From Isoetes taiwanensis (Eukaryota > Streptophyta > Lycopodiopsida > Isoetales > Isoetaceae), in NCBI GenBank assembly GCA_021234155.1, contig JAJEKV010000191.1:112842-176841 (forward strand): DNA of 64,000 nt, written 5' to 3'. Below, one piece after another: positions 15,952-64,000 of the stretch. The stretch's first letter is position 1; each line of letters starts with the position of its first letter. The position numbers and the translations under genes are program-made. Below the pieces are notes generated by a model that had not been told where the DNA came from, did no database searches, and was given only the letters and a program-made list of their open reading frames with translations.

Positions 15952-17827
15952 CTAGTAATGGTGCCAGTTCTTTGGGCAAATGTTAAGGAACATTTGTGGA
16001 TGGAAACCTATTCAGCCCAGGACTCATTTTTATACACATCTAATATAATAGGGGAAACCAAGTCCATCATTGCTAGGCTATAAAGAGGTTTTGTGCATTT
16101 GATAACCTTTTAACTGCTCTATCACCTCCTTTTTTCCTCATTTTTCTTACACACGCTTTCTTTTTTTCCCTTTTCTTATTTTCCATGCATTTACTTTTTC
16201 TCCTTCTTTCTCTTTTTTTTTACCCTCTTCTCCCTCCTCTTTTTCTTCCTTTTCTCCTTCTCAATTTTTCCCTTTCCCTTTTCCCTTTTTTTTTAGCGCC
16301 ATTTTCTCATGATTTTTTTTTTTCCCTTTTCCTTTTCCCATTCCTTTTGCTTTTCTTCTCTTCCCTTTTCTCATGCCTTTTTTGCATTCCTTTTCCCCAC
16401 CTTTTTTTTTTTTTTATGTTTTCTTCCTCTCCTCCGCCCCTCTTCTTCTTTATCTCATGTCTCTTTTTCCCATTTCCTTCTTTTTTTTTTTTTTCTCATG
16501 CTTACCTTTTTTTCCTTTTCCTTCCCCTTTCAGCCTCCTTTTCCTTTCCCATTCCTTTTTCATCATTTTTCCCCACCCTTTTCCATTTTCAGGTGCCCTT
16601 TTCCTCTTTCCAGCTTTTCCCCTTTCCTTTCTCTTTCCCTTTCCCTTTCCCTTTTCCCTTTCCCTTTTCTCTTTCCTTTTTTCCTTTTCCTTTTTCCCAT
16701 GTATTTTCCACCCTTTTTCCCTTTTTTTTTACTTTTTGCTTTTCTTAGCCTTTCCTTACCCTCTTCCTTTTCCACTGTCCACTATTTCCCCTTTTTTTTT
16801 TCTTTTTCTTTTCCCTTTCCTGCATGCTCTCTTTTTCCCTTTACCCTTTTCCTCACCCTTTCCCTCTTCGGTTTTTTCATTACCCTTTTTCCTTCCTACT
16901 TTCCATTTTCCCTCCTTATTCCTAGAGTGTTCTTTTTCTTTCCTTTCCCTTTTACGCTCCCATTTTCCTTTTCCTTTCCTTCTTTTTTCATCCTTTTCTC
17001 TTTTTTTCCATGCCTTTTCCGCTTTCCTTTCCACCTTTTTTTCCTTCTCTCTTTTCCTTTCCATTTTTCCACACACAGCACACCATTCCATTTTTCCACC
17101 TTTTTCACATGCCCTTTTTTCCTCCTTTTCCCACCCTCTTCCCGCCTTCCCTTTTCCTCTTTTTCCTATTCCATGTTTTCTGATTCTCTTTTTGCTTTTA
17201 CCGGCTTTTCCTTTTCCCTTTTTCCATCTCTTTTTTTCCTTTCTTTTTTCCATTCCCTCCCGCACCTTTTCCTCTTCTCGTGCCACTTTCTCCTTCCTCT
17301 CTCATTTCCCTCTCCTTTTCCTCATGCGCCCTTTTCACGCCTTGCCTCCTTTTTCCTTTTTTTCCTTTTTTCCTTCCCTTTCTATTTTCCATTACTTTTT
17401 CCCTCCTCCACCATTCTTATCTTCCTTTTCCATGCATCACCCTTTTTAGTCTTCACATTTTCCGTTGCCCTTTTTTCTTCCTTTTCCTCCACTTCCCTTT
17501 TCTTTTCCCGCCAATGCATCCTCACCCCTTTCCCCTTTTCCTTTTCGCCAGTATCTTTTCCTTCCTTTTTCTCCCTTTCTTTTTCTTTCCCTTTTTCGTG
17601 CTCTTTTCCCGGGCTGCTTTTCCTTCTCCGTCTCTTTCCCTTTTACACGTGCCTTTTTTGCCTCCGCTTTGCCTTTTCTGCTTGCAGGGCTTTCCCTTTC
17701 CTCTTAAGAGATCAGAGCATAGCCAATCATGGTGAGGTGGGAAGTTGTCACGATAAATCTCGGCCTTCAAATGCAATCGAGCGTCTCAACTATCTAAATT
17801 AGGGTTTGATGCAAGACATCGCTAAGA
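15952..17827 (-). mobile_element. Helitron type A, complete (about 1.9 kb)
   Basis: The left edge is the Helitron 3' end: CTAGTAATGGTGCC plus a weakened hairpin, then 'gggcaaatgtt' and 'ggaacatttgtggatggaaacc', as at 50537. The core from about 16110 to 17700 is almost pure C/T. The right edge holds 'ctaaattagggtttgat', 'caagacatcgctaaga', reading TC on the minus strand. Array sequence abuts both sides (taagtaggaa / gggtataagaattatg). No Rep/helicase coding is seen. Long Phe/Ser/Pro frames here reflect the lack of stop codons in C/T sequence. Confidence 0.75.
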
Positions 17828-18831
17828 GGGTATAAGAATTATGAATGAGCGTCGCTTATCTCGCCATAGATGGGGTATACATATGTGAGATCCATAAAAA
17901 TGGTATATAAGATTTAAAAATCAACCCCGATGTGAGTACGAGCTCGGTTCTAATTAAGTACCCAAAAATATAACATGCAAAGTGCTTGCTAAAAGAAAGA
18001 GTCGTAGAACATCTATAAATAGAAGATAAACTTCCAGTTGGACATATCTTCGCCATGAGCCTGAATTTGAAGCGATTTTAACTTCAGCGGAATGAAAATG
18101 CCAGCGGTTTTGTTTACGGATTAGGGGTGGCATTTTTTTGTGATTCATATATGTATGGGGAGCAATATCCAAAAGTATGAAAAGTCCACGCAGAGCGACA
18201 TCATAACCAAGCGGGGAATCCAATTCTAGAGAAAGTCATTATTTTTTTAAAGCTTTTGCTTTAGAAAACTCAACATTAGTCCTTAAACTGACCGCCCAAC
18301 CTTGTTGCTAAGAACAAATTCCCATCTTGTGATGGAGCACCTCTTAATTATTCAGAAGCGCTTCCCCTTTTCTTAAGCTCGTGGAAGTGACCATATTGCA
18401 CTTGGGCAAAAAGCTGAGGCTGCGAATTTAGGTGATTATTGCTCAGCTTTGTAAGTAGCTATTAATATCATAAATTTTTGGTATATTTCTTGCGGGGTTT
18501 TCTACGCGAAAGTGAAGGTAATGAATCATAGAGGTTATATAATACTTCCTTGCCATGGGCGGAGCTAAGAGTAGAAAAACAAAAGAAAAATGTTTATTTT
18601 CAGCGTAAGCTTCGAAGCATATCCTAGGAGCGCCAAGCAGCTAAGATGATGGAAAATCTTTGAAATTCTTGGATTTTCTCATTGGGCCCCATAGAGTTTT
18701 GGTACGCGGGGCTTTTGCGTATCTCAGGAAGTTTAAGAACATTTCACAATTATGGTTGTCCAAGACATTGAAGAGATGGTTTCTTACTTGCTATCAAAGT
18801 ATCTTTGAAGAGGCAGAACATTGTCCAAAAT

Positions 18832-18914
18832 TCGCGGCTTTGGCAGTGGTTAAAGTGGCGCTTTCTTAAGTGCATGGGGTTTCCCACGGAGTTCAAATCT
18901 CTCACCAGGCGGCG
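18832..18914 (+). tRNA. tRNA-Ser-like, unit 9, degraded
   Basis: TTCGCGGCTTTGGCAGTGGTTAAAG and the variable and T-arms are visible. The anticodon loop reads 'tttcttaagtgcatgg', so GCU is lost. Confidence 0.45.
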
Positions 18915-19065
18915 TAACCTTGTTCAAGAGAATAAATCTTTGGATTTCTTTGACTGGTATATATCCCAGCGGGATGGTGGGGGATCATTGATTCAATTCC
19001 TTCTGACCACACATTTTGGATACATCTATAAGTAATGCCGGGTTTTGATGCTTGAGTGCATTATA

Positions 19066-19133
19066 GGGGATGTAAGCTCGGATAATTGAGTAAGTTTAGC
19101 ATCACGAGGGAGGTATTGGGGATGATGCCCAAC
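19066..19133 (+). tRNA. tRNA-Ala(AGC)-like, unit 9, degraded
   Basis: GGGGATGTAAGCTCGGATAATTGAG, then a shortened anticodon stem with TTAGCAT, then a partial T-arm. Confidence 0.45.
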
Positions 19134-20283
19134 TATTTTTCCTTCTCCACGAGCTTAAGTAGGAAATGGGGTATAAATTGAGAATGGTCTTGCACCCTGG
19201 CCGCGGAAGTGAGCCATGCGTCCGTAGAAGTTTAAAAATCAACCGATGTGAGTGCAGGCTAGAGTTCTAGTGGTACTTTAAAAGAGGACATAACGTACAG
19301 TGGCACTTCAAGAATTTCAAAGTGGTAGGGAGCTGGCATCCAAAATGAGACAAGCTTGGGTTGCTTGTCCAGGGTACAGGCTGCCGATGTGATGCAGGCT
19401 GCGGTTCCTGAGTGAATTGCCCCAAAAGGAAATATAACATACAAGTGCTAAAAGAAGGCTAAGGAAGTCGTGGAGACATCTATAAATAGAGATAAACTTG
19501 ATTGGACATATCTTGCCGAAGCGCACCAGTGAATTTTTTGCGCTTACGCCGGAATAAATCACCGAGTTTTGTTTTACGGGTGGCGGCATTTTTTTGTAGA
19601 TTTAATATGTAGCTGAGGAGCAATGTCCCGAAATATGAAAAGTCCTACACTGAAGGGGCGAGAGAGCATCATAACCAGCGAGAATCTAATTCAGAGAGTC
19701 ATACATTTTCAAAGCTTTTTTGCTTTCGCTTTTCAACTATTCCCGTCCGCCCAAACTGGCCTTAGCGCTTGTTGCGCCAAACAAATTCCCACTCTTGTGA
19801 TGGAGCGCCTCTTAGTGTGGAAGAGCCTTCTTTCTTAAGCTGCATTGAGCCATATTATGAGCAGCCCGAGGCTGATTGGTGTGCTCAGCACAATGGCCCC
19901 TACTATTAATATCCTTATTTTGGTATATTTTATATGCGGGGATTTTCACAAAAGCGTGAAGGTAAGCCTTGAAGTCATTATTTTCCACCAGGGGTTATAT
20001 AATACCTTTCACTTACCCATGGAGGCTGACCTAAAATGAAAAACAAAAGAGAGAAAAAATGTTGCTGCTAGCCAAGTAAACGGTATGTCTAGGGCATAAA
20101 GCAACTAAGATGGAAAATGCTGCAAAAGAATTCTTGGATTTTTCATTGGGCCCCATAGAGTTTTGAGTGCCTTGAGGCTTTGCACGCCGCATCCCTCAAA
20201 GTTTAGAACATTTTCTAATTATGGTTGTCAAAGACATTGAGATGAACAACACTATCAAAGTATCTTTGAAGGCATTATTAAAG

Positions 20284-20375: not shown

Positions 20376-20396
20376 TAACCTTACATTCAAGAAGAA

Positions 20397-22540
20397 TCTT
20401 ATATTATAATGTTGTGTAATGGACGCACCCTAAATCCGGTTGATGGGGATTTGATTGACCAATGGTGGAGATGATGTATGCGTGTCTTCAACAAATTTCA
20501 TCTACTTGACTATGGCTTCAGTATAAGAAAAGGAAAAGAGGAAAGGAAAAGGGAAAAGGGAAGGGGGAAAAGGGGAAGGGGAAGGGGGAAAAGAAAAGGA
20601 AAAACGATGAAAGGAAAGGGAAAGGAAAAGAGGGAAGGGGAAAGGAAAAGGAAAAGCGATGAAGGAGAAAAGGGAAAAGGGGGAAGCAAAGAGAAAAGAA
20701 AAGGGAAGGGAAAAGGAAAAAAACGATGAAAGGGAAAAGGAAAAACTATATAAGAAGGGAAAGGAAAAGGAAAAGGGGAAGGGAAAAGGAAAAAAAAGAT
20801 AAGAAAGGGAAAAGGGAAAGGGAAAAGCGAGGAAAGGGAAAAGCGGAAAAGCGGAAAGAGGAAAAGGAAAAGGGAAAAGAAAAGGGGCCGGGAAAAGGAA
20901 AAACGATAGAAGAGGGAAAAGGAAAAGCGGAAAGGGGAAGGGGGAAAAGGAAAAATGATGAAAGGGGAAAAGGGGAAAAGGAAGAAAGGAAAAGGGGAAA
21001 GGAAAAGGAAAAAAGCGATGAAAGGGAAAAGGGAAAAGGAAAAGGGAAAAGAAAGGGAAAAGGAAAAGGAAAAAGGAGAAAAGAGGAAAAAGCGATGAAA
21101 GGAAAAAGGGAAAAGGAAAAGGAAGAGGGGAAGGAAAAGGAAAAACGATGAAAGGAAAAGGAAGAGGGAAGGAAAAGAGGAAAAACGATGAAAGGGAGGA
21201 AAATGGAAAGGAAAAGGAAGAGGAGAAGGGGAGAAAAAGGAAAAAGCAGAGTAAGAAAGGAAAAGGAAAAATGAAAAGGAATAAAAGGAAAAGGTAAGAG
21301 GAAAAAAGGAAAAGAGAAGGAGAAAAAGGAAGAAAATGGAAAGATAAAAAAGAAAATAGAAAAAGGAATAGAATAGGCGAGGGGGAGAAAGGGAGCGGAA
21401 AAAAGAGCTTACATGAGAGGAGGTAAATAAATAGAAAAGAGGAGAAAAAGGTAAAGGGAAAATAGAAAAAGCTTACACCAAAGTCTATGGGAAAGAAAAG
21501 TAAAAAGGAAAGAGAAAAGGGAAAAAGAGAACTTGGAAAGGAGCAAGAAAAAGAAAAAAAATGAAAGTGAAAAAAGGGGGAAAAGAGAAAGGGTGAAGAA
21601 GAAAAAGGAAAGAAACAAAAGAGCGCTCGAGAAAAAAGGAAGAGAGGAAAGGATGGAAAATGAGGGGAAAAAGGTGGGGGAATTAGAATAGACAAAGGGT
21701 AGGGAGCAAAGGGAATAGGAAAAGAGGAAGGAGAAAAGAGCCACGAGACAAAAGGGAAGAGGGGAAAGGGTGAGGGAAATAGAAGAAAGAAAGGGAAAAA
21801 GAGAGTATGGGAAAGGGGAAAAGAAAAAGAAACAAGAGAAAGGAGAAGTGGAAAGGAAAAGGGGGAGAAGAAGATGGGGAAAAGAAGGAAAAAGGGTACA
21901 TAAAAAGGTTGAAAAGGGAATGGAAAGAGGCATATAAGCGAAGAGAGCGGAGAAAAGGAAAATGTAAAAGGAAGGGGAAAAGAGAAAGGAAAGGGAAAAA
22001 GGAACATACATAGAAAGCAAGGAGTGGGGAAAGTATGAAAGGGGAATGATGGAAAGTTGAAAGAGGGAAAGGAAAGCGAGGAAAAAGGAGAAGGAGAAAG
22101 CAAAAGAGCATGAGGAAAAGAGGAGAGTGGAAAAGAGATGGGGGAAAAGAGCCTTGATCAAAGAGGAAGAGGTGGGGAAAGGAAGAAAAGGCACATGAAA
22201 GGTAAAATGAAAGAGAGATAGAAAAAAAATGCATAGAAAGCAGGGGAAAGAGAGGAAAAGGAAGAAAAAGAATAGTGGAAAAATGGGAAAAGGCGGGGGA
22301 AAGATAAAAGGAAGGAAAAAGCTGATAAAAAGAAAAAGAAAGAAAAAAGGGAAGAAAAGGCAAAGGGGAGGGAAACGGGGTTAGAAAAAAGAAGGAGAAT
22401 AAAAAGAAAAATTAAAAGGTTCCTACAATACAAATGCGGGACACCAACATTACAGTTCAACAAACCTTCGTATTTCCTAGGTCTGCAAGCATTACCCGGT
22501 TCAACTGTGCCCGGCTGCTTGTTGGGCACCGCGCCAATAG
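20397..22540 (+). mobile_element. Helitron type B, complete (2144 bp)
   Basis: The 5' end is TCTTATATTATAATGTT, preceded by A (20396). The 3' part carries blocks reverse-complementary to 63605-63740 ('caccaacatta', 'tttcctaggtctgcaa'), a weakened hairpin and a terminal ATAG, followed by T (22541). Removing it restores the array spacer 'aagaa^taaatctttag', a perfect A^T Helitron target. The body from about 20520 to 22410 is nearly pure A/G, with GATGAAAG repeated in the 5' part (20600-21210). Length matches the type B copies on the minus strand. Confidence 0.85.
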
Positions 22541-32115: not shown

Positions 32116-34682
32116 CTAGTAATAATGGTGCTTGGTACGTTGCTGAGCATATGTTAAGAACTGTAAGAAGTTTTTGGTGTTCATAAAAGCTTCTTGAGGA
32201 ATAATCCAACTATTTAATTTTTTTATTATCATGAAACTTTTCAAGGTATAACAATGTCTATAGGGCATCTAAGCTCCTTCATGTTAGATAGTGTTGCATC
32301 GGTATCTATCGGGAGCTTTAGAATTGGTGTTTATGATGATGTGCTGATTTCGCAATTGTTAAGGTCTCACATTTGCCACATGCTAAAAAGTGGCACATAT
32401 CATCACCACAATGGCTCTCTGTGTCTCACGGGTGAGTGGGATTGAGAGATGCTTTAAATCTTGGACCGCCAGGAACCTAAAAGCACTACAATACAAATTG
32501 TTAATAAATCATCTTAAAATATATATATCAACCTCATAGAACATGGCGTTTTCTTACCATTTGATGAGAGCCATTTGATACTTAAATTTGAAGGAGCAGT
32601 TCTACCTATATGTTCTTTTCAAAGAATTCGTTATAATATTTGGGTGAGGGGCATTGGATGGCAAATACAGATTTCACCCATGTCTACAGAGCGGTAATAA
32701 CCAAAAGTAATGAGTACCCGGTATGCTTTGGTATAAATTAGGAACCTTTAATTTCTTTCTTTTTTTTTATTCTCCTTTTTTTTTTTTTTTTCTAACCCCT
32801 TCTCCCTCCCTTGCCTTCCCTTCCCCTTCCCTTTTTTTTTTTCTTTTCTCTTTTTCTTATCGGCTTTTCCCTTTCAACTTTTATCTTTCAGCTCTTCCCA
32901 TTTTTTCCACTACTCTCTTTTCCCTTTCCTTTTCCCTTCCTCTTCCTTTTTCCTTACTTCCTTTTCTCTTTCCGTTTCTAAGTGCATTTTTTTGGATTTC
33001 TCTTTTGCTTACCTTTTTTCATGTGCCCTTTTCTTCCTTTCCCCACCGTCTTCCCTCTTAGATCCGCGTGCCATTTTTCCCCATCTCTTTTCCCATTTCT
33101 ACTCTCCCTCTTTTCCTCATGCTCTTTTGTTGCCCTTCTCCTTTTTTCAGCTTCCCTTTTCCTTTTCAACTTTTCCATTCCTTTTCATACATTTCCCCAC
33201 CCTTTTTGCTGCGATGTTCCTTTTTCCCTTTCCTTTCTCGCTTTCCCTACCTTTACATTTTCCTTTCAGTTCCCTTTTACGGCACTTCATATGCCTCTTT
33301 TCCGATTTCCACTTTTTCTCGATCTTTTTTATGTACCCTTTTTTCCTTCTTTTCCCCATCCTCTTCCCCTTTTTCCCTTTCCACTTTCTCCTTTCTTTGA
33401 GCTGCTGCTGCATACTCTTTTTTCCTTTCTTTTTTTCTATTTCCTCACCCTTTCCCTCTTCCCTTTTTTCTCGTGCCCTTTTCTCCTTCCTCTTTTCCTC
33501 TTTTCCTATTCCTTGCTCCTATCCTTTATGCATTCTACTTTCCCCACCTTTTTCCTCATTTTCCATTCTTTCCCTCTTCCCTTTTTTCGATGCTCTTTTT
33601 GCTTTTCCTTTTTTTCTCTTTCTTGACCCTTTCTCTCTTTTCCCTTTTTTTTTTTTTCCATACTTTCCTTTTTTTCTCTTTCTCCTGGATTTCCTTTTAC
33701 CCCAAGTTCTCTTTTTTCCTTTTCCCCCCTCTCTTTTCCTTTTTACTTTTTCTTTTCCATGCTCACCTTTTTCTCCTTTTCTCACCTTTACTCCTTACCC
33801 TTCTGCAGCGGTGCTCTTTTTCCGTTCCTTTCCCCCTCGCCTATTCTATTCCTTTTTCTATTTTTCTTTTTATCTTTCCATTTTTCCTTTTCTCCTTCCT
33901 GCTTTCCTTTTTTTCCTCTACCACCTTTCTTTTTATTCCTTTTCCTTTTCCTTTTCCTTTCCACGCTTTTCCCTTTTCCTTGCCTTTCGCCGTTGTTCCT
34001 TTTCCCTTCCCCTCTTCCTTTTCCTTTTCCCTTTCATGGTTTTCCTTTTCCTTCCCTTTTCCTTTCCTTTTCCTTTTCCCCTTTTCCCTTTCATCGTTTT
34101 CCTTTTCCCTTCCCCTTTTCCTTTCCGCTTTCCCTTTTTCCCTTTCATCATTTTTCCTTTTCCCTTCCCTTTTCCGTTTCCTTTTCAGTTTTCCACTTTC
34201 ATCGTTTTCCCTTTTTCGGAGTCCCCTTCCTTTTCCCTTTTCCCTTTTCCCTTTTCCCTTTTCCGTTTTCCTTTTCCGTTTTCCCTTTTTCCCTTTCATC
34301 TTTTTCCTTTTCCGCCCCTTTTTCTTTACTTTTTCCTTTCCTTCGTTTTCCCTTTTCCCTTTTCCTTTTCATGGTTTTTCCTTTTCCCTTCCCTTTTTCG
34401 GTTTCCCTTTTCCCTTTTTTCCCTTTCATAGTTTTCCTTTTCTCTTCCCCTTCCCTTTTCCTTTTGCCTTTCCACTTTTCCCTTTTCCCTTTCCCTTTTC
34501 CTTTTCCCTTTTCCACTTTTCCTTTTCCTTTTCCCTTTTTCTTTCCCTTTCATGTGAAGCCATAGTCAAGGATAAATTTTTAGTTGAACAACGCGCACAT
34601 CATCTCCACCATTGGTCAATCAAATCCTCGACCCGTCCAGGGTTAGGAGTGCGGTCCATTACCTAACATTTATAATATAAGA
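32116..34682 (-). mobile_element. Helitron type C (about 2.57 kb)
   Basis: Left edge (Helitron 3' end): CTAGTAATAATGGTGC with a decayed hairpin. A non-repetitive 3' module of about 620 bp follows (32116-32740), then a C/T-only body to 34552. The 5' module contains 'ccatagtcaagg', 'ccaccattggtcaatc' and 'tataatataaga', reading TCTTATATTATA on the minus strand. The 5' module and much of the body match type B; only the 3' module differs. It is directly abutted by a type B element at 34683. Minus-strand sense is purine-rich. No transposase is visible. Confidence 0.75.
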
Positions 34683-45144: not shown

Positions 45145-45200
45145 CTAGTAATGGTGCCCAGCGTTCTTTGGCCTTAAGTTCGACTTTGTAAATGTTTTGG
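45145..45200 (-). mobile_element. Helitron 3' end (element D) nested in E
   Basis: CTAGTAATGGTGCCCAGCGTT follows A, with a damaged hairpin (GCCCAGC/tttGGCC). The following sequence ('aagaagggcttcttgataataagcc') resembles the subterminal part of type C. Its right edge cannot be placed; it lies somewhere before 48422. Confidence 0.55.
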
Positions 45201-45487
45201 CGCAATAAGAAGGGCTTCTTGATAATAAGCCAACTTTTGTAACTTCTTATTATAATAATTTTTTTTTTTTCAAAGCTTTAACAACGTTTTCCATGGACTA
45301 TGTAAACAATATCAAAACAATAGGGAAGTGGCGTTCTTTGGGCCTAATTTGGAGTACATATTAATCCGGGATAGTGTAAGTTGAGAACTTGAAAATGTTA
45401 ATTTGTTTTATAGCCTAGCATCTTCAATTATAGCGGCTCCTCATAATCTTAAAATTATCTTGCGCCTTGCAGCATTTCTTCTTAAAA

Positions 45488-45583
45488 AAGCTTTGTAATA
45501 CTTTTACATTGATCCTGTAAAGAATAGGAATGTAGAAGCTTTGTAATACTTTTACATTGATCCTGTAAAGAATAGGAATGTAG
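45488..45583. repeat. 48-bp perfect tandem duplication
   Basis: Two adjacent identical 48-bp copies (45488-45535 and 45536-45583), each beginning 'aagctttgtaatac' and ending 'gaataggaatgtag'. Confidence 0.9.
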
Positions 45584-48019
45584 ACAACGTTTATGTCCAT
45601 GCTCAACATCGTTCTTATATGGCTAAGGACCTAGATTATCATTGGTACCCATGTGGGACCAAAAGGAACTTCTACTCATGCAAAGAAAGAAAAGAGGAAA
45701 AGATGTGAAACGATCTAGCAAACATGCGTTTAGGTGTTAAGATGTGTGCCTAGGTATAACATAAATTGGGTACCCAATCGAGTGCATGATGTCCATCATA
45801 CATGTGAAACATGAAACATAATATTATTATTGGAACCACGAGTTCGGGCTTAAATCGCCTTACATTCTCCTCGACAAAGCATTAAAAATACTTTGTTTAT
45901 GCGTGTTCATGTTTTCCTTTCTTTTTCATGAGGCTTAATAATAGCATACCTTGTGCCTATATAAACGTTTTTACCTTACGGGATATCACAAAATGACATC
46001 CTACATCTAGAATAATAGGAAGAATCTTTTGCAAATACATCATTGCACATGTACATGATGTTTCTCAATCTGCCGGATATGTTAAAAGTTCAATAAAAAC
46101 TAAAGAGAAGAATTTTATAGCTATACGTGGAGCTTGGCTCTTTTCCATAGAAACAAAGCATGGGTTTTAGTCACATGAACTTGTTGGAAGTAGACAACTA
46201 AGTGGGATTCACCTCTAACATGTATTTCATAGCAGTCTTGTGTCTCCCAATAATTGCTCCAACCAAAGCGTGTACAATCAATATTTGCATGCAACGCGAG
46301 TTTAAATTTGAAACACGGTAGCACTTAATGCCATGAGATGTCGAATCGACATACCCGGTTTGTTGATGGCGGATATGCAGCTGACCAAGCGAGGGAAGCA
46401 AAGGAGGTCTTGTAGGTTTAACCTTAGGCTTCTGTCTGCCGTCGACAATCAGTGCACCCCAATGAAGCACCCAAATGAAGCGATCCTGTAACCTTACGCC
46501 TAAAACCGTTAATGATCAAAACCCATGCAATTCTGAGAAAAAATGAAACAACAAAATGCAATAAGCAATCAAGCATTTTTTGAAGGTAGAAGCCAATTAT
46601 TGAATGAAATTTCTCAAGTGGTGTATCCCTTTGCGGCAAGCTCCGGTTATAATCCTGAAAGCTACATAATAACTCTTTCAAATGAGAAGTCTAAATAGAT
46701 AGGATACATCTAGAGTCGGATGTTTTTGGAGAATTTAAATAGATCACCTAGTAATGCATTTGATAAATGCCACTTATGGTGACAATGCATATTCTACAAT
46801 AAGCAAGAGAAGAAAAGCGGTTTGCAATATGAGGAAAAGCGAGAGAAATCTTATTCTTTCACTAATACTCTATTATTAGGTGGCGATTCCCATATAATAA
46901 GTTCGATATTGATGTCCTAATAGATCACAACTTAAAAGTGGGAGCTACCATTTTTGTAATCCTTTTTACGCATTTCTCATTCAGCTTTGGGTGGAGTATA
47001 GATGCTGAATATAGAGTTGAGAATAAAGGATCTCTGCAAGATCATTTGAACTATGGAAGCGGAATTAAGTTGTGTAAATTTATAAATCCATGAGAAGGCG
47101 TACACTGTATGTATAGGATCAGTGGAACATCATAGTACGTACACAAATTGCTCCTTTGGAGTGAATGAAGATGCAATAAATGGAGCACGAGGTAATTTAC
47201 ATAAGGAAAATGAAATGGGGACCATGAAAGGACCATTCAAATCTTGGGCGAGAAGATCCCTTACACCATCTACATCTCCGAACCTAAAGTTTTGTAGAAA
47301 TTTAGCACCATAATGCTTTGCTCATTATCGGTACGCAATGGCATTGCCCAAGCTATGCTTAGCTTATCTTTTATCCATGATAAAAATGGTATACGTAAGA
47401 AAAATCCGGCTGACATTTTGGGCCAAAACAACGGCGATCCTCCGTGCATCTAGCAAAATCATCACGCACCATAGTAAGCGGCTTCAATAAGCGAAAAAGT
47501 TCCGCCCGGTTTGCTCGGCTATGGGTGCATAATAGCGAGGATTGTGATCTGCTCCAATTCCAAAAGTGTGCATAGGGTGTTTGTCTCTTCTTTGTCCCAT
47601 AAATCCGGCAAAACCATCTTTGGAAAGAATTTGCGAGAATGTTTAGAATCGGTTCCATTTTACCCGACCATGGGTGTCACCCCATCGATACTGACATAAT
47701 ACTTGCCCGCGAATTTACAACAATTGTCACGACTAGCATAAAGGCGAACTTTTAAGCAATTTTGCATGATAGCCCTACAAAGGTTCTGACCTCCACGATC
47801 CTGAAGCTTTATCGCATATTGTATAATTATTTACGCAAAAGATTACTTGAGCAGACCATTGATTCATTTACAAAACACCCAATTTAGCATGCCCATGCTC
47901 TATGCATCTGCTATCCCAGTTGCACATTCATCAACAAATTCAAAGGAAGGTCCCATACCCAAAACTCACCGGCATTGCCACATCCCACCATCAAAACCTT
48001 GGAAGTCTTGGGAATATAC

Positions 48020-48396
48020 TTAGCCATATCTTGGCGGATGAAGATTGAATAGTAGAATCGGCCCAGCCACAACAACGGCGAGGAGCCCTAACATGGATCT
48101 GTGGCTCACGAGCGGCTTCATCTCCATTAGTTGTCGAAGCTCGATCATGGCGGGGAAAGCGGCAATTAGAAGAAGGCTCTTTTGCGGCAGCGTCTTGCTT
48201 CTTCTATAGCGAGGAAGCTTCTTCCTTCTTCTAAATACCCACATAGCGGAATCGGCTTCTTGTTTCTTCTAAATGCGGAACTCATGAACCCTAGCAAAAA
48301 AAAAAAAAAAAAAAACCTAGAATCTTCACATGGCATCATCTCTTCCATTGATTTCATCAAATCTGGGCCGCCAAATTTAAATTTTGGGTCCAACAC
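48020..48396 (-). pseudogene. Unrecognised ORF remnant inside element E
   Basis: On the minus strand, overlapping frames include a short protein-like stretch with a hydrophobic segment (SMLGLLAVVVAGPILLF) after basic and acidic residues. The upstream frame is interrupted by a homopolymer (T on this strand, 48296-48315). It looks like an N-terminal exon with a membrane anchor, but I cannot name a family. A captured gene 5' end is possible. Confidence 0.25.
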
Positions 48397-48427
48397 TTAC
48401 CTAATAACATTATAATATAAGATAAGA

Positions 48428-50536
48428 CTAGTTAAGGTGCCCAATTCTTTTACTACACCATTTAAACCGGCAATGTTGGAACCTAGAAATAATAAGGTTT
48501 ATTGGAGGCCAGTAATGTTGGTGTCACGGCATTTGTATTTGTAGGAACCTTTAATTTCTTTCTTTTTTTATTCTCCTTTTTTTTTTTTTTAACCCGTTCT
48601 CCCTCCCTTTGCCTTCCCTTTCCCCTTTCCCTTTTTTCTTTCTCTTTTCTTATCATGCTTTTCCCTTCCTTTTTTTTCTTTCCCGCTCTTCCCATTTTTC
48701 CACTATTCTCTTTCCCTTTCCTTTTCCCCTTCCTTTTCCTTTTCCTTTTCCTTTTCTCTTTCCGTTTCTCATGCATTTTTTTCGTTCTCTTTTTACCTTT
48801 TCATGTGCCCTTTTCTTCCTTTTTCCACCCTCTTCCTCTTGATCTACAAACGTGCCCTTTTTCCCCATCTCTTTTCCAATTTCTCTCTCCTCTTTTCCTC
48901 ATGCTCTTTTGCTTTCCTTCTCCTTTTTCCTTTCCTTTTCCTTTCAACTTTCCATTCCCTTTTCATACTTTCCCCCACCCTTTTGCTTTGCGATGTTCCC
49001 TTTTCCCTTTTCCTTTCTCTTTCCCTTCCTTTACATTTTCCTTTTCCGTTCCTTTAAAGCTTTTCATATGCCTCTTTCCATTCCCTTTTCTCAACCTTTT
49101 TTATGTACCCTTTTTCCTTCTTTCCCCATCTTCTTCCCCCTTTTCCCCTTTCCACTTTCTCCTTTCTTGTTTCTTTTTTCTTTTCCCTTTCCCATACTCT
49201 TTTTCCCTTTCTTTCTTCTATTTCCTCACCCTTTCCCTCTTCCCTTTTTTCTCGTGCCCTTTTCTCCTTCCTCTTTTCCTATTCCTTGCTCCCTACCCTT
49301 TGTCTATTCTAATTCCCCCCCACCTTTTTCCTCATTTTTCCATCCTTTCCCTCTTCCTTTTTCTCGATGCTCTTTTTGCTTTCCTTTTTCTCTTTCTTCA
49401 CCCTTTCTCTTTTCCCCTTTTTTCACGCCCTTTCATTTTTTCTCTTTTTCTCGTTCCCTTTTCCCAAGTTCTCTTTTTCCCTTTTCCCCCTCTCTTTTCC
49501 TTTTTACTTTTCTTTTTTCCCATAGACTTTGCAACCTTTTCTTATTTTCCCTACCTTTTTCTCCTTTTCTCACCTTTACTTCTTACCCTTCTTCGCGGTG
49601 CTCTTTTTCCGTTCCCTTTCCCCTCAAACCTATTCTATTCCTTTTCTATTTTTCTTTTATCTTTCCATTTTCCTTTTCTCCTTCTCTTTTCCTTTTCCTC
49701 TTACCTTTCCTTTATTCCTTTTCATTTTTCCCTTTTTCCCTTTCAAGCGTTTTTCCTTTTCCCTTCTCCTCTTCCTTTTCCAGAACCCATTTTCCCTTTC
49801 ATGAAGTTTTTCCTTTTCCCTTCCCTCTTCCTTTTCCCTTTCATCGTTTTCCTTTTCCCTTCCCTCTTCCTTTTCCCTTTTCCTTTTCCCTTTTCCCTTT
49901 CATCGTTTTTTCCTTTTCCTTTTTCCTTTTCCCTTTTCCCTTTTCCTTTCATCGTTTTTTCCTTTTCCTTTTTCCCCTTTTCCTTTTCCTTTTTCCTTTT
50001 CCCTTTCATCATTTTTCCTTTTCCCTTCCCAAATCCGTTTCCCTTTTCCCTTTTCCTTTCATAAACCTTCCTTTTCCCGTCCCTTTTCCTTTTCCTTTTC
50101 CTTTTCCCTTTTCCGTTTTATAAATTTTCCCTTTTCCGTTTTCCCTTTTCCTTTTCCCTTTCATCTTTTTCCCATTTCCTTCCCCTTTTCCTTTTCCCTT
50201 TTCCCTTATATAGTTTTCCCTTTTCCCTTTCATCGTTTTCCCTTTTCCCTTCCCATTTACATTTCCCTTTTCCCTTTTCCCTTTCATCGTTTTTCCTTTT
50301 CCCTTCCCCTTTTCCGTTTCCCTTTTCCCTTTTCCCTTTCATCGTTTTCCTTTTCCCTTCCTTCCCCTTTCCCAAAAATTTTTAACTTTCCCTTTTCCTT
50401 TTTTCCTTTTCCCTTTCCTTTCCATAGTCAAGATGATTTTGTTGAACAAAGCACACATCATCTCCACCATTGGTCAATCAAATCCTCGACCGTCCGATTT
50501 AGGGTGCGGTCCATTACACAACATTATAATATAAGA
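48428..50536 (-). mobile_element. Helitron type B (2.1 kb), head-to-tail with C
   Basis: It starts CTAGTTAAGGTGCCC directly at the last A of element C (48427). It has the B-type 3' module, a C/T body 48550-50425 with the 'catcgttttt' motif and the 'cttatatagttttcc' marker near 50205, and a 5' module ending 'cattataatataaga'. T follows at 50537. The C-to-B junction equals that at 34682/34683. Confidence 0.82.
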
Positions 50537-52320
50537 TGGTGCCCAGCGTTGCTGGGCAAATGTTGGGAACATTTGTGGATGGAAACCTATTCAGCTCAGA
50601 CTCATTAACCAAGTTCATCATATCTAGGCTATAAGAGGTTTTTGTGCATTTGATAACCTTCCCTATCCTTTTTTCCTCATTTTCTTACACACTTTATTTT
50701 TTCCCTTTTCTTATTTTTCCTGCACATTTACTTTTCTCCTTCTCTCTCTCTTTTTTTCTTTTCTTTTTTACCCTCTTCTCCCTCCTCTTTTCCTTCCTTT
50801 TCTCCTTCTCATTTTTCCCTTTCCCTTTCCCTTTTTTGACGGCTTTTTTCCTTCCCTTTTCACCTTTCTCCACCCTTCCCATTTTCTCATGCTCTTTTTT
50901 TCCCTTTCCTTTTCCCATTCCTTTTTGCTTTTCTCTTTTCCCTTCCCTTTTCTTATGCCCTTTTTGCATTCCCTTTTCCCCACCTTTTTTTATGTTTTCT
51001 TCCTCTCCTCACCCTCTTCTTCTTTATCTCATGTCTCTTTTTCCCATTTTCTTCTTCCTTTTTTTTTTCTCATGCCTTTTTTTTCCTTTTCCCCCTTTCC
51101 GCCTCCCTTTTCTTTTTTTCCCTTTCCTTCTTTTTCATCATTTCCCCACCCTTTCCCTTTTTTCGTGCCCTTTTCCTCTTTCCTTCCCCCCTTCCTTTTC
51201 TCTTTCCCCCTTTCCTTTTTTCCTTTTTTTTTCTTTTTCCCATGTATTTTTCCATTCCTTTTTCCACTTCTTTTTACTTGCCTTTTCTTCAATGCCTTTC
51301 CCTACCCTCTTCCCCTTTTTTCCCATTTTCTTTTCCCTTTCCCTATGCTCTTTTTTGCCTTTATTTTTTACCCTTTGCTCACCCTTTCCCTCTTCCGATT
51401 TTTTCATGCCCTTTTCCCTTCCTCTTTTCCATTTTCCCTCCTTATTCCTCGTGTTCTTTTTCTTTCCCCTTTCGCCTCCCATTTCCTTTTTCCTTTCCTT
51501 CTTTTTTTTCATCCTTTTCTCTTTTCCATGCCCTTTTCCTCTTTCCTTTCCCCTTTTTTTTTCCTTCTCTCTTTTCCTTTTCCATTTTCCCACCCTTTTT
51601 CCATTCCATTTTTCCACCTTTTCACATGCCCTTTTCCTCCTTTTCCCACCCTCTTCCCCTTTTCCCTTTTCCTCTTTTCCTATTCCATGTTTTACATTCT
51701 CTTTTTGCTTTTCAGCTTTTCCCTTTTCTCTTTTTCCATCTCTTTTTCCCTTTCTTTTTTTCCTTTCCTCACCCTTTTCCTCTTCTCGTGCCACTTTCTC
51801 CTTCCTCTCTCATTTCCCTCTCCCTTTTCCTCATGCCCTTTTCCCTTTTTGCCTCCTTTTCCTTCCCTTTCTATTTTTTCCATGCCCTTTTTTCCTTCTC
51901 TTCATCATTCTTATCTTCCCCTTTTTTTCCCTTCACCCCCTTCCGTCTTCACCTTTTTCCGTTGCCCTATTTTTCTTCCTTTTCCTCCCTTCCCTTTTCT
52001 TTTCCCTTATTCTGTCCTTACCCTTTCCCCCTTTTCCTTTTCATAGTGTCCTTTTTTTTTCCTTCCTTTTTCTCCCTTTCTTTTTCTTTCCCTTTTTAAA
52101 AGCTCTTTTCCCTTTCCTTTTCCCTTCTCTAGTCTTTCCCTTTTACCCTTTTTTGCCTCTCACTTTTGCCCTTTTCTCTGCCATTTTCCCTTTCCTCTTA
52201 AGAGATCGGAGCATGGCCAATCCGGGTGGTGAGGATTGTGCGATAAATCTCGGCCTTCCGAATGCTATCGGGACGATCTCAACTATCTAAATTAGGGTTT
52301 GATTGAAGACATCACGCTAA
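50537..52320 (-). mobile_element. Helitron type A, second minus-strand copy, 3' tip missing
   Basis: It begins TGGTGCCCAGC with a perfect hairpin (50541-50557) but lacks the usual leading CTAGTAA. It continues 'aaatgttgggaacatttgtgg' as at 15970, and is C/T-only from about 50660 to 52190. It ends with 'cttaagagatcggagcatgg', 'ctaaattagggtttgat' and 'gaagacatcacgctaa', the same 5' module as at 17700-17827. The remaining bases to 52337 are assigned to the host Helitron H1. Confidence 0.72.
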
Positions 52321-52337
52321 AACTTTATAATATAAGA

Positions 52338-52377: not shown

Positions 52378-54522
52378 CTAGTTAAGGTGCCGGCGTTCTT
52401 GAGCCTGTTGGAAGCGGCAATGTTGGAGACCTAGAAATAATAAGGTTTGTTGGAACTGGTAATGTTGGTGTCCTGGCATTTGTATTGTAGGAACCTTTAA
52501 TTTCTTTCTTTTTTTATTCTCCCTTTTTTTTTTCTAACCCCGTTCTCCCTCCCTTTGCCTTCCCTTTCCCCTTTCCCTTTTTTTCTTTCTCTTTTCTTAT
52601 CGACTTTTTCCCTTCCTTTTTATCTTTCCCGCTCTCTCCCATTTTCCACTATTCTCTTTCCTTTTTCCCCCTTCCTTTTCCTTTTTCCTTTTCCTTTTCT
52701 CTTTCCGTTTCTCATGCATTTTTTAGTTCTCTTTTGCTTACCTTTTTCATGTGCCCTTTTCTTCCTTTCCCCACCCTCTTCCTCTTGATCGCGTGCCCTT
52801 TTCCCCATCTCTTTTCAATTTCTCTCCTCTTTTCCTCATGCTCTTTTTTGCTTTCCCTTCTCCTTTTTTCGCTTTCCTTTTCCTTTCAACTTTCCATTCC
52901 CTTTTCATACTTTCCCCACCCTTTTGCTTTTTTGATGTTCCCTTTTTTCCCTTTCCTTTCTCTTTCCCCTTCCTTTACATTTTCCCTTTTCCGTTCCTTT
53001 AAACTTTCATATGCCTCTTTCCATTCCCTTTTCTCAACCTTTTTTTTTGTACCCTTTTTTCCTTCTTTCCCCATCTTCTTCCCCTTTTCCCCCTTTCCAC
53101 TTTCTCCTTTCTTGTTTCTTTTTCTTTTCCCTTTCCCATACTCTTTTCCCTTTCTTTCTTCTATTTCCTCACCCTTTCCCTCTTCCCTTTTGTCTCGTGC
53201 CCTTTTCTCCTTCCTCTTTTCCTATTCCTTGCTCCCTACCCTTTGTCTATTCTAATTCCCCCACCTTTTTTCCCTCATTTTCCATCCTTTCCCTCTTCCT
53301 TTTTTTTTTCTCGATGCTCTTTTTTGCTTTCCTTTTTCTCTTTCTTCACCCTTTCTCTTTTCCCCTTTTTCCATCCCTTTCATTTTTTTCTTTTTTTTTC
53401 GTTCCCTTTTCCCAAGTTCTCTTTTCCCTTTTCCCCCCTCTCTTTTCCTTTTTTACTTTTCTTTTCCCATAGACTTTGCAACCTTTTCTTATTTTCCCTT
53501 ACCTTTTTCTCCTTTTCTCACCTTTACTTCTTACCCTTCTCGCGGTGCTCTTTTTCCGTTCCCTTTCCCCCTCGCCTATTCTATTCCTTTTTCTATTTTC
53601 TTTTATCTTTCCATTTTCCTTTTCTCCTTCTCTTTCCTTTTTCCTCTTACCTTTCCTTTATTCCTTTTCATTTTTCCCTTTTCCCTTTCATCGTTTTTCC
53701 TTTTCCCTTCTCCTCTTCCTTTTCCCTTTTCCATTTTCCCTTTCATCGTTTTTCCTTTTCCCTTCCCCTCTTCCTTTTCCCTTTCATCGTTTTTCCTTTT
53801 CCCTTCCCCTCTTCCTTTTCCCTTTTCCCTTTTCCCTTTTCCCTTTCATCGTTTTTCCTTTTCCTTTTTCCTTTTTCCTTTTCCCTTTTCCTTTTCCCTT
53901 TTCCCTTTTCCCTTTTCCCTTTCATCGTTTTTCCTTTTCCTTTCCCCTTTTCCTTTTCCCTTTTCCCTTTTCCCTTTCATCTTTTTTCCTTTTCCCTTCC
54001 CTTTTCCTTTTCCCTTTTCCCTTTTCCCTTTCATCGTTTTTCCTTTTCCCGTCCCCTTTTCCTTTTCCCTTTTCCCTTTTCCTTTTCCGTTTCCGTTTTC
54101 CCTTTTCCGTTTTCCCTTTTCCCTTTTCCCTTTCATCTTTTTCCTTTTCCTTCCCTTTTCCTTTTCCCTTTTCCTTATATAGTTTTCCCTTTTCCCTTTC
54201 ATCGTTTTTCCTTTTCCCTTCCCCTTTTTCTTTCCCTTTTCCCTTTTCCCTTTCATCGTTTTCCTTTTCCTTCCCCTTCCCCTTTTCCCTTTTCCCTTTT
54301 CCCTTTCATCGTTTTTCCTTTTCCCTTCCCCTTCCCCTTTTCCTTTTTCCATTTTCCCTTTTCCTTTTCCTTTTCCTTTTTCCTTTTCCCTTTCATATTG
54401 AAGCCATAGTCAAGATGAAATTTTAGTTGAAGACACGCACACATCATCTCCACCATTGGTCAATCAAATCCTCGACCGTCCGATTTAGGGTGCGGTCCAT
54501 TACACAACATTATAATATAAGA
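52378..54522 (-). mobile_element. Helitron type B, cleanest complete copy (2145 bp)
   Basis: Left edge: A then CTAGTTAAGGTGCCGGC (hairpin decayed). The 3' module 'gttggagacctagaaataat', 'ggtaatgttggtgtcctggc' and 'taggaacctttaatttc' is followed by a C/T-only body (52498-54390). The right third of the body holds about eleven repeats of TTTCATC(G)TTTTTCC at 40-100 bp spacing (53689, 53744, 53785, 53848, 53923 and on to about 54310). The 5' module 'gaagccatagtcaagatg', 'ccaccattggtcaatc', 'gatttagggtgcggtccatt', 'cattataatataaga' ends at 54522, then T. No coding capacity beyond stop-free C/T frames. Confidence 0.88.
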
Positions 54523-60269: not shown

Positions 60270-60524
60270 TTAAAACATCGCCTCCTGCAATTTAGTGGGT
60301 ATATATTTCACATCTATTTCTCCCTTCTCTACCTCATCTCGAATAAAATGGTGATGGACTTCTATATGCTTAGTTCGTGAATGGCAAACTAGATTTTTGC
60401 TCATTGCTATCCCACTTTTGTTGTCACAATAAATTGTAGTAGCATCCGCACATGACTTCCCTAACTCTCTGAGCATTCTTCGCAACCAAATGATCTCTCG
60501 ATCTTTTGCCGGAGAGCGCCACAT
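60270..60524 (-). pseudogene. Copia RNase H, C-terminal part
   Basis: The segment WLRRMLRELG...TIYCDNKSGIAMSKN...HSRTKHIEVHHHFIRDEV...YIPTKLQ is the standard copia RNase H end. It contains the CDN catalytic aspartate and the R-T-K-H-I-E-V-H motif. It is separated from the preceding segment by a frameshift near 60525. Confidence 0.85.
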
Positions 60525-60525
60525 A

Positions 60526-61326
60526 TTACGCCTTGCCTTTGGACTTTGCTACACATTCTTGTTTTTTACTGGCCCATGATATTGCCGTGTCTCCAAGTTT
60601 GCAAAGATATCCAGATGTTGACTTTCTATCATCAATGTCTCCTCCCCAATCTGCATCTGCATATCCAACTAAATTATTCTCCACACTCTTTGAAAAACGC
60701 AATCCATGGGTTAAGGTACCCTTTAAATACCTAAGAATTCTTTTTGCGGCTATCCAGTGCTCCCTTCCTCTACTGAGTAGATTAACAGCATAAGCAATAT
60801 CTGGCCTTGTGCTATTCGCTGCATACAACAAACTCCCAACCAATGACCTATAAGGTCTGCTTTTCATTTCCTTTTCCTCTTCAGGTGTTTTCGGACACAT
60901 CTTTCCTGATATTTTTATTCCTGCGACCAATGGTGTTTTTGCTACATTACAGTCAAGCATCCTGAATTTGACTAGCATTTTCTTGATATATTGCTCCTGG
61001 GTAAGATATAACACACCCTGAGCTCTATCCCTTCTTACTTCCATTCCAAGCAGTTTCTGAAGATCTCCAAGGTCAGTCATTTGGAAACGGCTTCTCAACA
61101 ACAATTTATACTTATCCAGCAAGGCTTTGTCATTACTAGCAATGACGCAATCATCAACATATAATGCCATTATTAGGCGCTTATCTCCTTCCTTTTTCAT
61201 GTAAAGGTTTCCTTCTGTTTTCAATTTGATGAATCCATTGGTAACCAAAAACCTGTTCATGCATAAGTACCATTGCCTAGACGCCTGCCTAAGTCCATAA
61301 ATGGCCTTTCTTAACCTGCACACCAT
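60526..61326 (-). pseudogene. Copia reverse transcriptase C-terminal half and RNase H start
   Basis: The 266-aa open segment starts CRLRKAIYGLRQASRQW and contains the RT active-site box ALYVDDCVIAS. It then has the connection LLGMEV...YIKKMLVKF, PYRSLVGSLLYAANSTRPDI and the RNase H start GYADADWGGDIDDRKSTSGY. It is the best-preserved part of the element. Confidence 0.9.
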
Positions 61327-61341
61327 ATCATTACCTTGTTC

Positions 61342-61641
61342 TTACCCATGAGGCTGCTCCATATAAATTTCTTCTTCCAAGTCTCCATTCAAGAAAGCGG
61401 TCTTGGCGTCCATATGACTTAGTTCCATGTCATTACGCCTTTGCCCAATCGCTATAAGGGCCCTCAAACTAGTCATCTTAACGATAGGCGAAAAAGTGTC
61501 TTTATAGTCTATCCCTTCCAACTGCGTATATCCCTTAGCAACTAAACGAGCCTTGTACCTTTCTACTGATCCATCTGCTTTTCTTTTAATTTTAAAAACC
61601 CATTTACTACCGACCACGTTCTTATCATTTGGTCTCGGCAC
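61342..61641 (-). pseudogene. Copia reverse transcriptase N-terminal part
   Basis: Reads KNVVGSKWVFKIKRKADGSV...YKARLVAKGYTQ...GIDYKDTFSPIVKMTSLRAL...QMDAKTAFLNGDLEEEIYM-type motifs, the classic first half of copia RT (here HMDAKTAFLNGDLEEEIYME). A frameshift separates it from the downstream half. Confidence 0.9.
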
Positions 61642-62056
61642 TAAGTCATATGTCGGTCTGTTTGAATGAATCTAATTCATTCTTCATTTTGCTTCCTTCC
61701 ACAAGTTTGCATCCGGCCTGCTCTCTTTTCCCTCTCATTTTACGGTTCTAAAATACAAGACAAGACTTTAGGTTTTCTAGGTCTTGTTGTCTTGCCACTT
61801 TCCTTTACGCCATAGGTATCAGGTATCAAGCGGGGGTTGAGACTTTAGGCGTTCAACCTCACTGCGTCGAGCTCTACTTTCGTACTCCTTTGGGTTTCTT
61901 CGATGACAACTTCCTTTGCTCTCCTCCCCTGCACAGCCAAACTTCCGGTTACCTTTGTCGGTCTCTAAGACCTCATGCACCTCCTGCGGCTCGATATCTT
62001 GCCCATGAAATGCACTATCGATCTCTATGACTTCATGCACCACATCGGCTCTATGC

Positions 62057-62584
62057 CTACCTGCTCCTCACAACTTGGTCCTCGTCACCTTCAAGCTCAA
62101 ATTCATCTTCCAGCGGCAAGCCATTTGTTTCCTTTGAATCGTCGATTGCTTCCTGCTTTGCTTTTGAATTATCTTCCAAATACTCAACTGGTATCCATTC
62201 CATTGTCTCCTGCTTGCTAAGCAATTTCCTGTCTTTGTACAAAATGTTTTCATTAAATATCACATCTCTACTAACATGTATTTTACGAGTATTGGGACCG
62301 TATAACCTGTAACCATTTGTTTCTTCATCATAACCCACAAGAAAGGTGAATACGCTTCTATCGTCCAACTTCTTCCTTAGCTCCTCGGGTATCAACATAT
62401 AAGCCAGACATCCATAAACTCTGAAACGCCTCAGCATTTGCTTTTGTCGGTCGAATTGTTGCAGTACACCTCCCTTTACTGCTGCACTAGGCAATCTATT
62501 TTGGATGTGACAAGCTGCCGCCACTGCTTCTCCCCACAAGCTATTAGGTAGGCCTGGCATGTTTAAGCATAGATCTCGCCGCAT
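62057..62584 (-). pseudogene. Copia integrase C-terminal domain and linker
   Basis: LPNSLWGEAVAAACHIQNRL, FRVYGCLAYMLIPEE, RSVFTFLVGYDEETNGYRLY and VSRDVIFNEN match the end of the copia integrase core and its C-terminal region. An acidic linker (EFELEGDEDQ) follows, then the frame breaks before RT. Confidence 0.88.
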
Positions 62585-62714
62585 TCATGATGGTGCGATT
62601 CTTTCGTTCCGCCACGCCATTTTGCTGTGGCGTATATCGACATGTGTATTGTCTTCTTATCCCATGTATCTGACAAAACCTGCAAAATTCACTTGACCTA
62701 TATTCCCCTCAAGG

Positions 62715-62981
62715 TCAGGATCTTAAACATTTAACCTTAAATGATGTTTCTCTTTCAACTTCCAACATAGAGTCTAAAGGCATCAAATACTTGGTCTTTG
62801 GACCGCAAAAGTAACACTTAGTCCTTCTACTATAATCATCAATAAATGTCGCGAAATAAGACTTTGATCCAAGGCTTTGAACTTGCATTGGCCCACAGAC
62901 ATCCGAATGCACTAATTCAAGCAGTTTATGTGCCCTCTTACCTTTATTTCTGAAAGGTATTCTACCCTGTTTGCCTAACAT
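62715..62981 (-). pseudogene. Copia integrase core, N-terminal part
   Basis: KLLELVHSDVCGPMQVQSLG, SKSYFATFIDDYSRR and TKCYF give the first two catalytic-core landmarks (HSD and FIDD). The region 62585-62714 contains the end of the core in other frames. Confidence 0.88.
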
Positions 62982-63045
62982 GCATGACTCACAAACATCA
63001 TCATGACTTTCGTCTTCACACCAAAGTCATCAAAAGATTATGTTG

Positions 63046-63498
63046 TTACGCAATTTTAATACTATTGTGATTTGCATGCGCCAATCTCAAATGCCAAGTA
63101 TGCAACTTATCTATGGGAGATATCTTATTAATTGACTTAATATCAAATTCAAATAGATTTCCCCTTCTTTCAGCATCAAATAGTTTCACACCATCCTTAA
63201 TAAACTTGCAACCATGTTTATGAAAAAACAAATCATAACCATTATCAACAAGATTGGCAACTGAGACCAAGTTAAATAACATTTCGGGTGCAAACAAAGT
63301 ATCTGGCAAATTTAAAACTTCCTTGCCTTCTCTTGATACCTGCAACTTCCCCTTTCCATACACCTTTTGTGTTGCGCCATTTCCCATTTGCATCTTTAAA
63401 CCACCTCGACTTGGTTCAACATTTCTCAACAAGTCAGATGAATTGACTATGGAGACTTCAGCTCCCGAATCTACAGTCAAAGTGTTAGTTTTATCCAA
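63046..63498 (-). pseudogene. Copia protease and GAG-pre-integrase
   Basis: The aspartic protease motif VDSGAEVSIVNS is followed by the protease body, NLVSVANLVDNGYDLFF and the GAG-pre-integrase LHTWHLRLAHANHNSI. Upstream gag is not present. Confidence 0.88.
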
Positions 63499-63604
63499 TT
63501 CCCCTTTTAAATCAACATTAGATACTACATCTCATAGATTTTATATTGGAGTTCATTACCTTATCCTCAGCAAGCATTCCTACCGCTGCTAAATCTTCTT
63601 TACC

Positions 63605-64000
63605 ATAGTTAAGGTGCCCAGCGTTGCTGGGCACAGGTTGGAACTGGCAATGTTGGAGACCTAGAAATAATAAGGTTTGTTGGAACTGGTAATGTTGGTG
63701 TCCTGGCATTTGTATTGTAGGAACCTTTAATTTCTTTCTTTTTTTATTCTCCCTTTTTTTTTTTCTAACCCCGTTCTCCCTCCCTTTGCCTTCCCTTTCC
63801 CCTTTCCCTTTTTTTCTTTCTCTTTTTCTTATCAGCTTTTTCCCTTCCTTTTTATCTTTCCCCGCTCTTCCCATTTTTCCACTATTCTCTTTCCCTTTCC
63901 TTTTCCCCTTCCTTTTCCTTTTCCTTTTCCTTTTCCTTTTCCTTTTCTCTTTCCCGTTTCTCATGCATTTTTTTCGTTCTCTTTTGCTTACCTTTTCATG
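63605..64000 (-). mobile_element. Helitron type B, 3' end (runs off the window)
   Basis: TAGTTAAGGTGCCCAGCG with a perfect hairpin GCCCAGC-GTT-GCTGGGC (63616-63632). It then has the B-type 3' module ('gttggagacctagaaataat', 'tgttggtgtcctggcattt') and C/T-only sequence from about 63730. The very tip reads CATAG rather than CTAG. It interrupts the copia element and is almost identical to the copy at 52378. Confidence 0.82.

Follow-up and report, generated by a model that had tools for sequence, protein, structure and literature searches.

Polypurine-tract Helitrons of Isoetes taiwanensis are probably one highly amplified lineage inside a large Helitron family

The cargo of Helitrons is usually held to be captured sequence without bearing on their mobility. 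In rolling-circle transposition as established for Helraiser and the wheat Xuan/Feng family, RepHel works on the 5' TC end, the sense strand is peeled off and the hairpin brings transfer to a stop. Two of the described systems close to the elements reported here are those of bats and wheat, so far as the available parts of the two papers describe them. Bat Helraiser and HelibatN have TC/CTAG ends, a 3' hairpin terminator, A^T sites, new 3' ends formed by read-through and high-copy non-autonomous subfamilies (PMC4778049); wheat Xuan1, whose autonomous counterpart is Feng8, has a 5' TC, a CTRR end with a nearby hairpin, AT insertion without duplication and no transposase of its own (PMC13286980). 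We analysed elements alike in these respects in a 64,000-nucleotide stretch of the Isoetes taiwanensis genome (assembly GCA_021234155.1, contig JAJEKV010000191.1, positions 112,842 to 176,841 of the forward strand), hereafter the window, in which Helitron ends enclose long polypurine tracts.

These polypurine elements are best read as one highly amplified tract lineage inside a large Helitron family, and we consider it probable that this non-autonomous lineage carries a purine tract acquired once as a passenger. Across the window we identified ten purine/pyrimidine-biased tracts, eight of them long (1.5-1.9 kb, one strand being 89.4-92.1% purine) and two clipped by the window ends (Table 1). 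An initial interpretation made from the letters of the window (the sequence-only reading) had proposed Helitrons of three types, A, B and C, filled with 1.3-2 kb of almost pure A/G on the Helitron sense strand. The three types, with their tracts and ends, were confirmed, and the purine strand was the Helitron sense strand for all ten tracts; the long tracts are real, at a purity of about 90% rather than almost pure. Seven of the eight long-tract elements have their own 5' terminus, one of these decayed (15952-17827), and the remaining one, with the tract at 42542-44336, has lost its 5' TCTTA and is joined to the 3' end of the preceding Helitron. In copies with a clear start, the 5' part before the tract measures 113-138 bp and begins with TCTTATATTATAATGTT or a close variant; a 17-mer of the 5' end occurs eight times in the window (≤3 mismatches) against 0.55 expected, a count reached in 0 of 100 shuffles. 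The 5' end at 48422, among the seven recorded for the window, opens a non-purine element. Type C consists of the type A 5' part and tract joined to another 3' part, and complete tract elements are 1.7-2.6 kb in length.

To characterize the ends, we counted them over the window and 20 fetched 10-kb loci. An A precedes 27 of 29 distinct 5' ends (the exceptions are locus L028 and window position 34682), and among 24 3' ends, 21 read CTAG with T next and three read CTAT with G next; decay has altered the ends of some window copies. At 9-11 nt from the end, three of four folded 3' ends form a hairpin whose stem is 7-9 bp and whose loop is 3 nt. These hairpins are 17-21 nt long (z score −3.6 to −4.7), and 0, 0 and 1 of 200 shuffles fold equally well; the fourth is weaker, with a 7-bp stem, a 5-nt loop, a z score of −1.6 and 15 of 200 shuffles as good. 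For comparison, the available part of PMC13286980 places the canonical Helitron hairpin, 16-20 bp in size, at 10-15 bp from the 3' end. The strongest evidence comes from the window itself. Because monomers of about 1.34 kb are repeated across most of 831-38763, other monomers show the pre-insertion site, and we compared three occupied sites with unoccupied monomers. The joined flanks of 20397-22540 align gap-free at the junction to at least ten monomers; among the alignments listed, one monomer (at 3042) has a 2-bp gap there. This element thus went in between A and T and left no target duplication. For 15952-17827, with its decayed 5' end, the site is consistent with A^T insertion, and that of the tandem pair 32116-36851 has a few extra bases left relative to the empty monomer. 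The preference of Helentrons (Helentron/Helitron2) for TT or T-rich sites, as described in the available part of PMC4067079, was not found at these A^T sites. A 5' TC after A, a 3' CTRR before T, a hairpin and A^T insertion without duplication are the canonical features of Helitrons, and the cis criteria tested support the polypurine elements as genuine non-autonomous Helitrons. The Helitron identity given by the sequence-only reading was thus borne out by ends, folds and empty A^T target sites, the last in the form of unoccupied satellite monomers.

We next consider the family across the genome. The 3' end has 7,530 matches (≤1 mismatch), compared to 0 for a reversed control, and the 5' end has 8,526 (≤2 mismatches), compared to 1,805 for its control. 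We sampled 20 loci, which were the first 20 of 100 exact 5' ends listed and were not drawn at random (contigs C2-C17). A polypurine tract lies behind eight of these 5' ends (L011, L012, L013, L014, L016, L019, L028 and L030) and no tract behind the other 12. For eight of the 12, a 3' end was found by pattern, which delimits elements 1.9-5.5 kb long whose purine content is 47-51%; the interiors of these eight and of window element 45145-48422 are mutually unrelated except for L023/L024, other matches being terminal (blastn, ≥80 bp). We take the interiors without a tract to be ordinary captured sequence. The Helitron family is much wider than its polypurine elements. A search of the genome with the ends, as first suggested, did yield thousands of matches, and eight of the 20 sampled elements had tracts; the idea of a Helitron family built on polypurine is not supported as stated, since matching ends bear ordinary cargo in the majority of sampled copies.

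To follow the tract lineage itself, we used as a marker 22 nt of 5' flank sequence lying directly beside, and outside, the tract in the non-A groups. This marker has 1,647 genome matches (≤3 mismatches) compared to 15 for the control, and at each of its 12 occurrences in retrieved sequence the next 300 bp are ≥85% purine. Three loci retrieved by the marker contained one full tract and two remnants of about 0.7 kb; the marker finds no match in L013, which does carry a tract. Markers for ordinary cargo (≤3 mismatches) had 62 matches for L023 (control 1), 24 for L018 (control 15) and 1 for L017 (control 0), or 10, 10 and 1, respectively, at ≤2 mismatches. At equal threshold, the tract lineage therefore has about 27-fold to more than 1,000-fold more matches than these three ordinary siblings, which are a small sample. 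At C908:6853494-6861442 and C934:2188015-2188539, several type B markers fall within a few kilobases on one strand, which suggests tandem arrays of the polypurine Helitron.

Type A is rare: its 3' boundary occurs 23 times exactly and three more times with 1-2 mismatches, for a total of 41 at ≤3 mismatches. Seven of the 23 exact boundaries are on the window's own contig (C1009) and four on C66, and several elements lie within one satellite array, so that the window copies might owe their number to growth of the array or to segmental duplication instead of transposition. We regard this as highly improbable, as the copies differ in flanks, monomer position and orientation, are bounded by Helitron ends, and have ends that recur thousands of times genome-wide.

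Next, we assessed how the tracts are related, scoring 15 pairs by the z score of their local alignment against 60 block shuffles. Collinear local alignments over 1.3-1.6 kb connect window type A and B tracts with tracts elsewhere (L019-wA52, 18.7; L019-wB50, 14.8; L019-L030, 31.8; L019-L016, 25.9; L014-L028, 17.5), with a modest score of 4.8 for wA52-wB50. A 6-bp phase of G is present in each of the 16 tracts examined (z score 4.7-9.4 against run shuffles). The motif GCAYG occurs 9-15 times per tract in the non-A groups and 1-5 times in types A and C, compared to 0.26-0.69 times in letter shuffles. At least four distinct 3' parts occur in combination with the tract, and a related 5' flank adjoins it across the non-A groups. 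Taken together, the alignments, the 6-bp phase and GCAYG make the tract look like old, degenerate (A3-4G2-3)n minisatellite-like DNA that was acquired once. Types A, B and C are probably not independent, their sequences pointing to one tract lineage. The earlier statement that the tracts are not simple microsatellites and have phrases in common held for the interior common to copies; an underlying 6-7 bp phase does exist, and it marks the tracts as degenerate microsatellite- or minisatellite-like DNA. It is also conceivable that tracts were acquired several times independently, if RepHel or rolling-circle replication tends to grow one-strand purine repeats. Such a history would explain why some tract pairs have no direct similarity and why the 5' third of the type A tract is a minisatellite of its own (50-57 bp); we consider it very unlikely, given that collinear similarity joins the groups via intermediates, GCAYG phrases recur and the adjoining 5' flank is related in the non-A groups.

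With a single acquisition, the tract strand would be constant because it was acquired once, and its constancy carries little statistical weight. The constant purine strand is not independent evidence for the role in strand peeling that the sequence-only reading considered possible, as the three types share one tract lineage. The type A consensus contains 7.6% pyrimidine, and private pyrimidines amount to 0.7-3.5% per copy, as predicted by decay of inherited purity.

Our favoured explanation, the once-acquired passenger tract, would proceed as follows. RepHel supplied in trans would move the non-autonomous elements by the rolling-circle route. One family member would have acquired, or grown by slippage, a purine-rich (A3-4G2-3)n minisatellite-like insert with GCAYG phrases, and would have founded the most amplified lineage among those counted, which divided into some five tract groups. 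The several 3' parts of the tract may stem from 3'-terminator read-through or 3'-end exchange; both are described as sources of new 3' ends in the available part of PMC4778049. The tract itself would most likely be a passenger, its purity inherited from the ancestor and slowly decaying.

Several observations weigh against this explanation. The large copy excess over the three ordinary cargoes is not predicted by a neutral passenger. Four of the 15 tract pairs are non-significant on their own (wA52-L014, 1.5; wB50-L014, 0.8; L014-L016, 1.8; wB50-L016, 2.8), so that common tract ancestry rests on a chain via L019, L028 and L030, and GCAYG is not convincingly enriched in wA20 (1 versus 0.26). In most pairs the tract turned over faster than the 5' flank, and composition stayed near 90%. 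Finally, a RepHel partner with matching ends is so far no more than a candidate.

To look for such a partner, we searched the genome for PF14214 (Helitron_like_N), resulting in 150 scored matches among 1,813 candidates. Upstream of eight Rep genes (4 kb, extended to 10 kb for five), we found one family 5' end on either strand (≤3 substitutions). This 5' end has one mismatch, follows an A and, on the same strand, precedes by 4.3 kb the Rep gene of contig C1036 (minus strand, 8553129-8553677; L043 plus L037); no family 3' end was found between the two. Seen from its upstream side, the C1036 Rep is a suggestive candidate for the autonomous partner, and the 5' end may instead belong to an independent, truncated insertion. 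Dense tandem repeats lie in the 4 kb preceding two Helitron Rep genes that are related to each other (L032 and L033).

The copy-number contrast is the main support for a bolder reading, in which the tract has a role in mobility. As a functional cis element, a kilobase of purine on the mobilised sense strand would promote transposition: R-loops might form on sense transcription, G-rich single-strand structures might engage a Pif1-like RepHel helicase, or the tract might provide an open-chromatin GA platform. The lineage would then have won because of its tract. This would fit both the tract's presence in eight of 20 sampled copies and the marker counts (1,647 versus 62, 24 and 1), although amplification may reflect size (1.7-2.6 kb) or chance, and type A has the tract yet is rare. 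The purine fraction is 0.885-0.921 in 17 tracts of diverged groups, and G2-type quadruplex motifs cover 26-58% of the tract sense strand and about 0% of the other. Helitron helicase domains are Pif1-related, and Pif1 has higher activity on DNA quadruplexes, according to the available part of PMC9964779. Yet G3 quadruplex motifs are clearly above dinucleotide shuffles in just one of 17 tracts (L019), with none at all in three, H-DNA mirror repeats clearly exceed shuffles in just two of six tracts tested, and a single ancestral acquisition reduces the strand bias to one observation. We judge a cis element unlikely as the explanation. Its more specific form, in which such a tract enhances the mobility of rolling-circle transposons by easing the peeling of the sense strand, through R-loops or through G-rich structures that a Pif1-family helicase encounters, and so lifts one lineage tens to more than 1,000-fold over its sampled siblings, we judge quite unlikely.

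Given so few G3 and mirror-repeat excesses, no specific non-B structure appears to be selected within these tests. The suggestion that such DNA can form triplexes (H-DNA) found support in the two tracts with excess mirror repeats, both type A, and not in the other four. An H-DNA or G-quadruplex design is unsupported beyond composition, save for these two tracts and for L019. Composition alone would give a G-rich sense strand and thereby favour R-loops on sense transcription. Selection for purity was not demonstrated: transition/transversion ratios are 2.0-3.1 in tracts compared to 0.75-2.7 in the short 5' flanks, with one flank value of 6.0 from 14 differences, and alignments of polypurine sequence are unreliable. 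Between-group flank transversions suffice for today's pyrimidine content of about 10% starting from a purer ancestor. We rejected the tract as coding sequence: the longest sense frames are 87-223 amino acids in 16 tracts, and frames are not kept between copies. Within groups, gap columns in tracts amount to 0.13-0.33 per site. Long antisense frames (261-559 amino acids) arise because C/T-rich DNA is without stop codons. The telomere unit is TTTAGGG; a telomere-like repeat was ruled out, the tract phase being A3-4G2-3.

Table 1. Helitrons, their polypurine tracts and the satellite array in the window.
Feature	Position	Strand	Tract	Remarks
Type B Helitron	1-830	+	47-664	89.6% purine; 3' hairpin and CTAG end at 830; 5' part beyond window
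Satellite-like tandem array	831-38763	+		Monomer of about 1.34 kb, mostly 70-85% identity; unoccupied monomers are empty sites
Type B Helitron	15952-17827	-	16125-17644	Decayed 5' terminus; within satellite monomer
Type A Helitron	20397-22540	+	20525-22411	A^T site in satellite monomer; 3' end ATAG, not CTAG
Type C Helitron	32116-34682	-	32752-34551	Different 3' part of about 0.6 kb; CTAG/TC head-to-tail with next element
Type A Helitron	34683-36851	-	34818-36728	Diverged 3' hairpin region
Type C Helitron	41923-44462	-	42542-44336	Without 5' TCTTA; 3' end GTAG
Helitron with matching ends, ordinary interior	45145-48422	-		About 49% purine
Type A Helitron	48428-50536	-	48555-50423	
Type B Helitron	50537-52337	-	50657-52199	3' end halts after hairpin at start of next element
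Type A Helitron	52378-54522	-	52501-54394	92% purine
Type A Helitron 3' end	63605-64000	-	63731-63997	Hairpin, CTAT here; start of tract, clipped by window; 92.5% purine

Some neighbouring elements in the window abut directly. Head-to-tail junctions, in which a CTAG end is followed immediately by the next 5' part, occur at 34682/34683 and 44462/44463 and in L046 near position 84, and they resemble rolling-circle concatemers. At 50536/50537, a type A element starts directly after a type B hairpin (CACCA/TC); the expected TTACTAG remainder was not found past its other end (48421-48428). Window copies, for example 48428-50536 and 52378-54522, differ in patches of several replaced bases, often at CG, and not in substitutions scattered uniformly; mutation or assembly noise may be the cause. 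On the minus strand, 60529-63531 contains long open frames, which we take to resemble a Copia-type polyprotein.

Siblings with matching ends thus differ in both cargo and copy number, the latter by 1-3 orders of magnitude in a small sample, which makes an effect of interior sequence on rolling-circle transposition testable. Through such Helitrons, long polypurine DNA with a propensity for R-loops and other non-B forms can also spread across a plant genome. In 2010, Coates et al. reportedly tied lepidopteran Helitron-like elements to (GAAA)n microsatellites, a purine-rich repeat as here, with different ends and hosts. In line with the initial view that no plant Helitron of such make has been described, the portion of PMC full text consulted contained no account of a Helitron with kilobase-long polypurine; the search did not extend to repeat databases or papers under subscription. 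Unlike wheat Xuan1, as presented in the available part of PMC13286980, the Isoetes elements have an interior of 1.5-1.9 kb of about 90% purine and a partner that is so far a candidate. For bat Helraiser the RepHel is known, and the available part of PMC4778049 does not mention a polypurine interior. A purine-rich motif has likewise been spread by a Drosophila miranda Helitron with a GA-rich MSL recognition element; that motif is 21 bp long, is read by a known protein and has a role in the host, as given in the available part of PMC6417741, whereas the Isoetes tracts run to kilobases and have no known reader. DINE-1 and other Helentron-like elements are also rolling-circle elements that carry or border simple or tandem repeats; their ends and hosts differ, and in the available part of PMC4067079 the DINE-1 repeat is a short microsatellite, whereas in Isoetes the tract makes up nearly the whole element.

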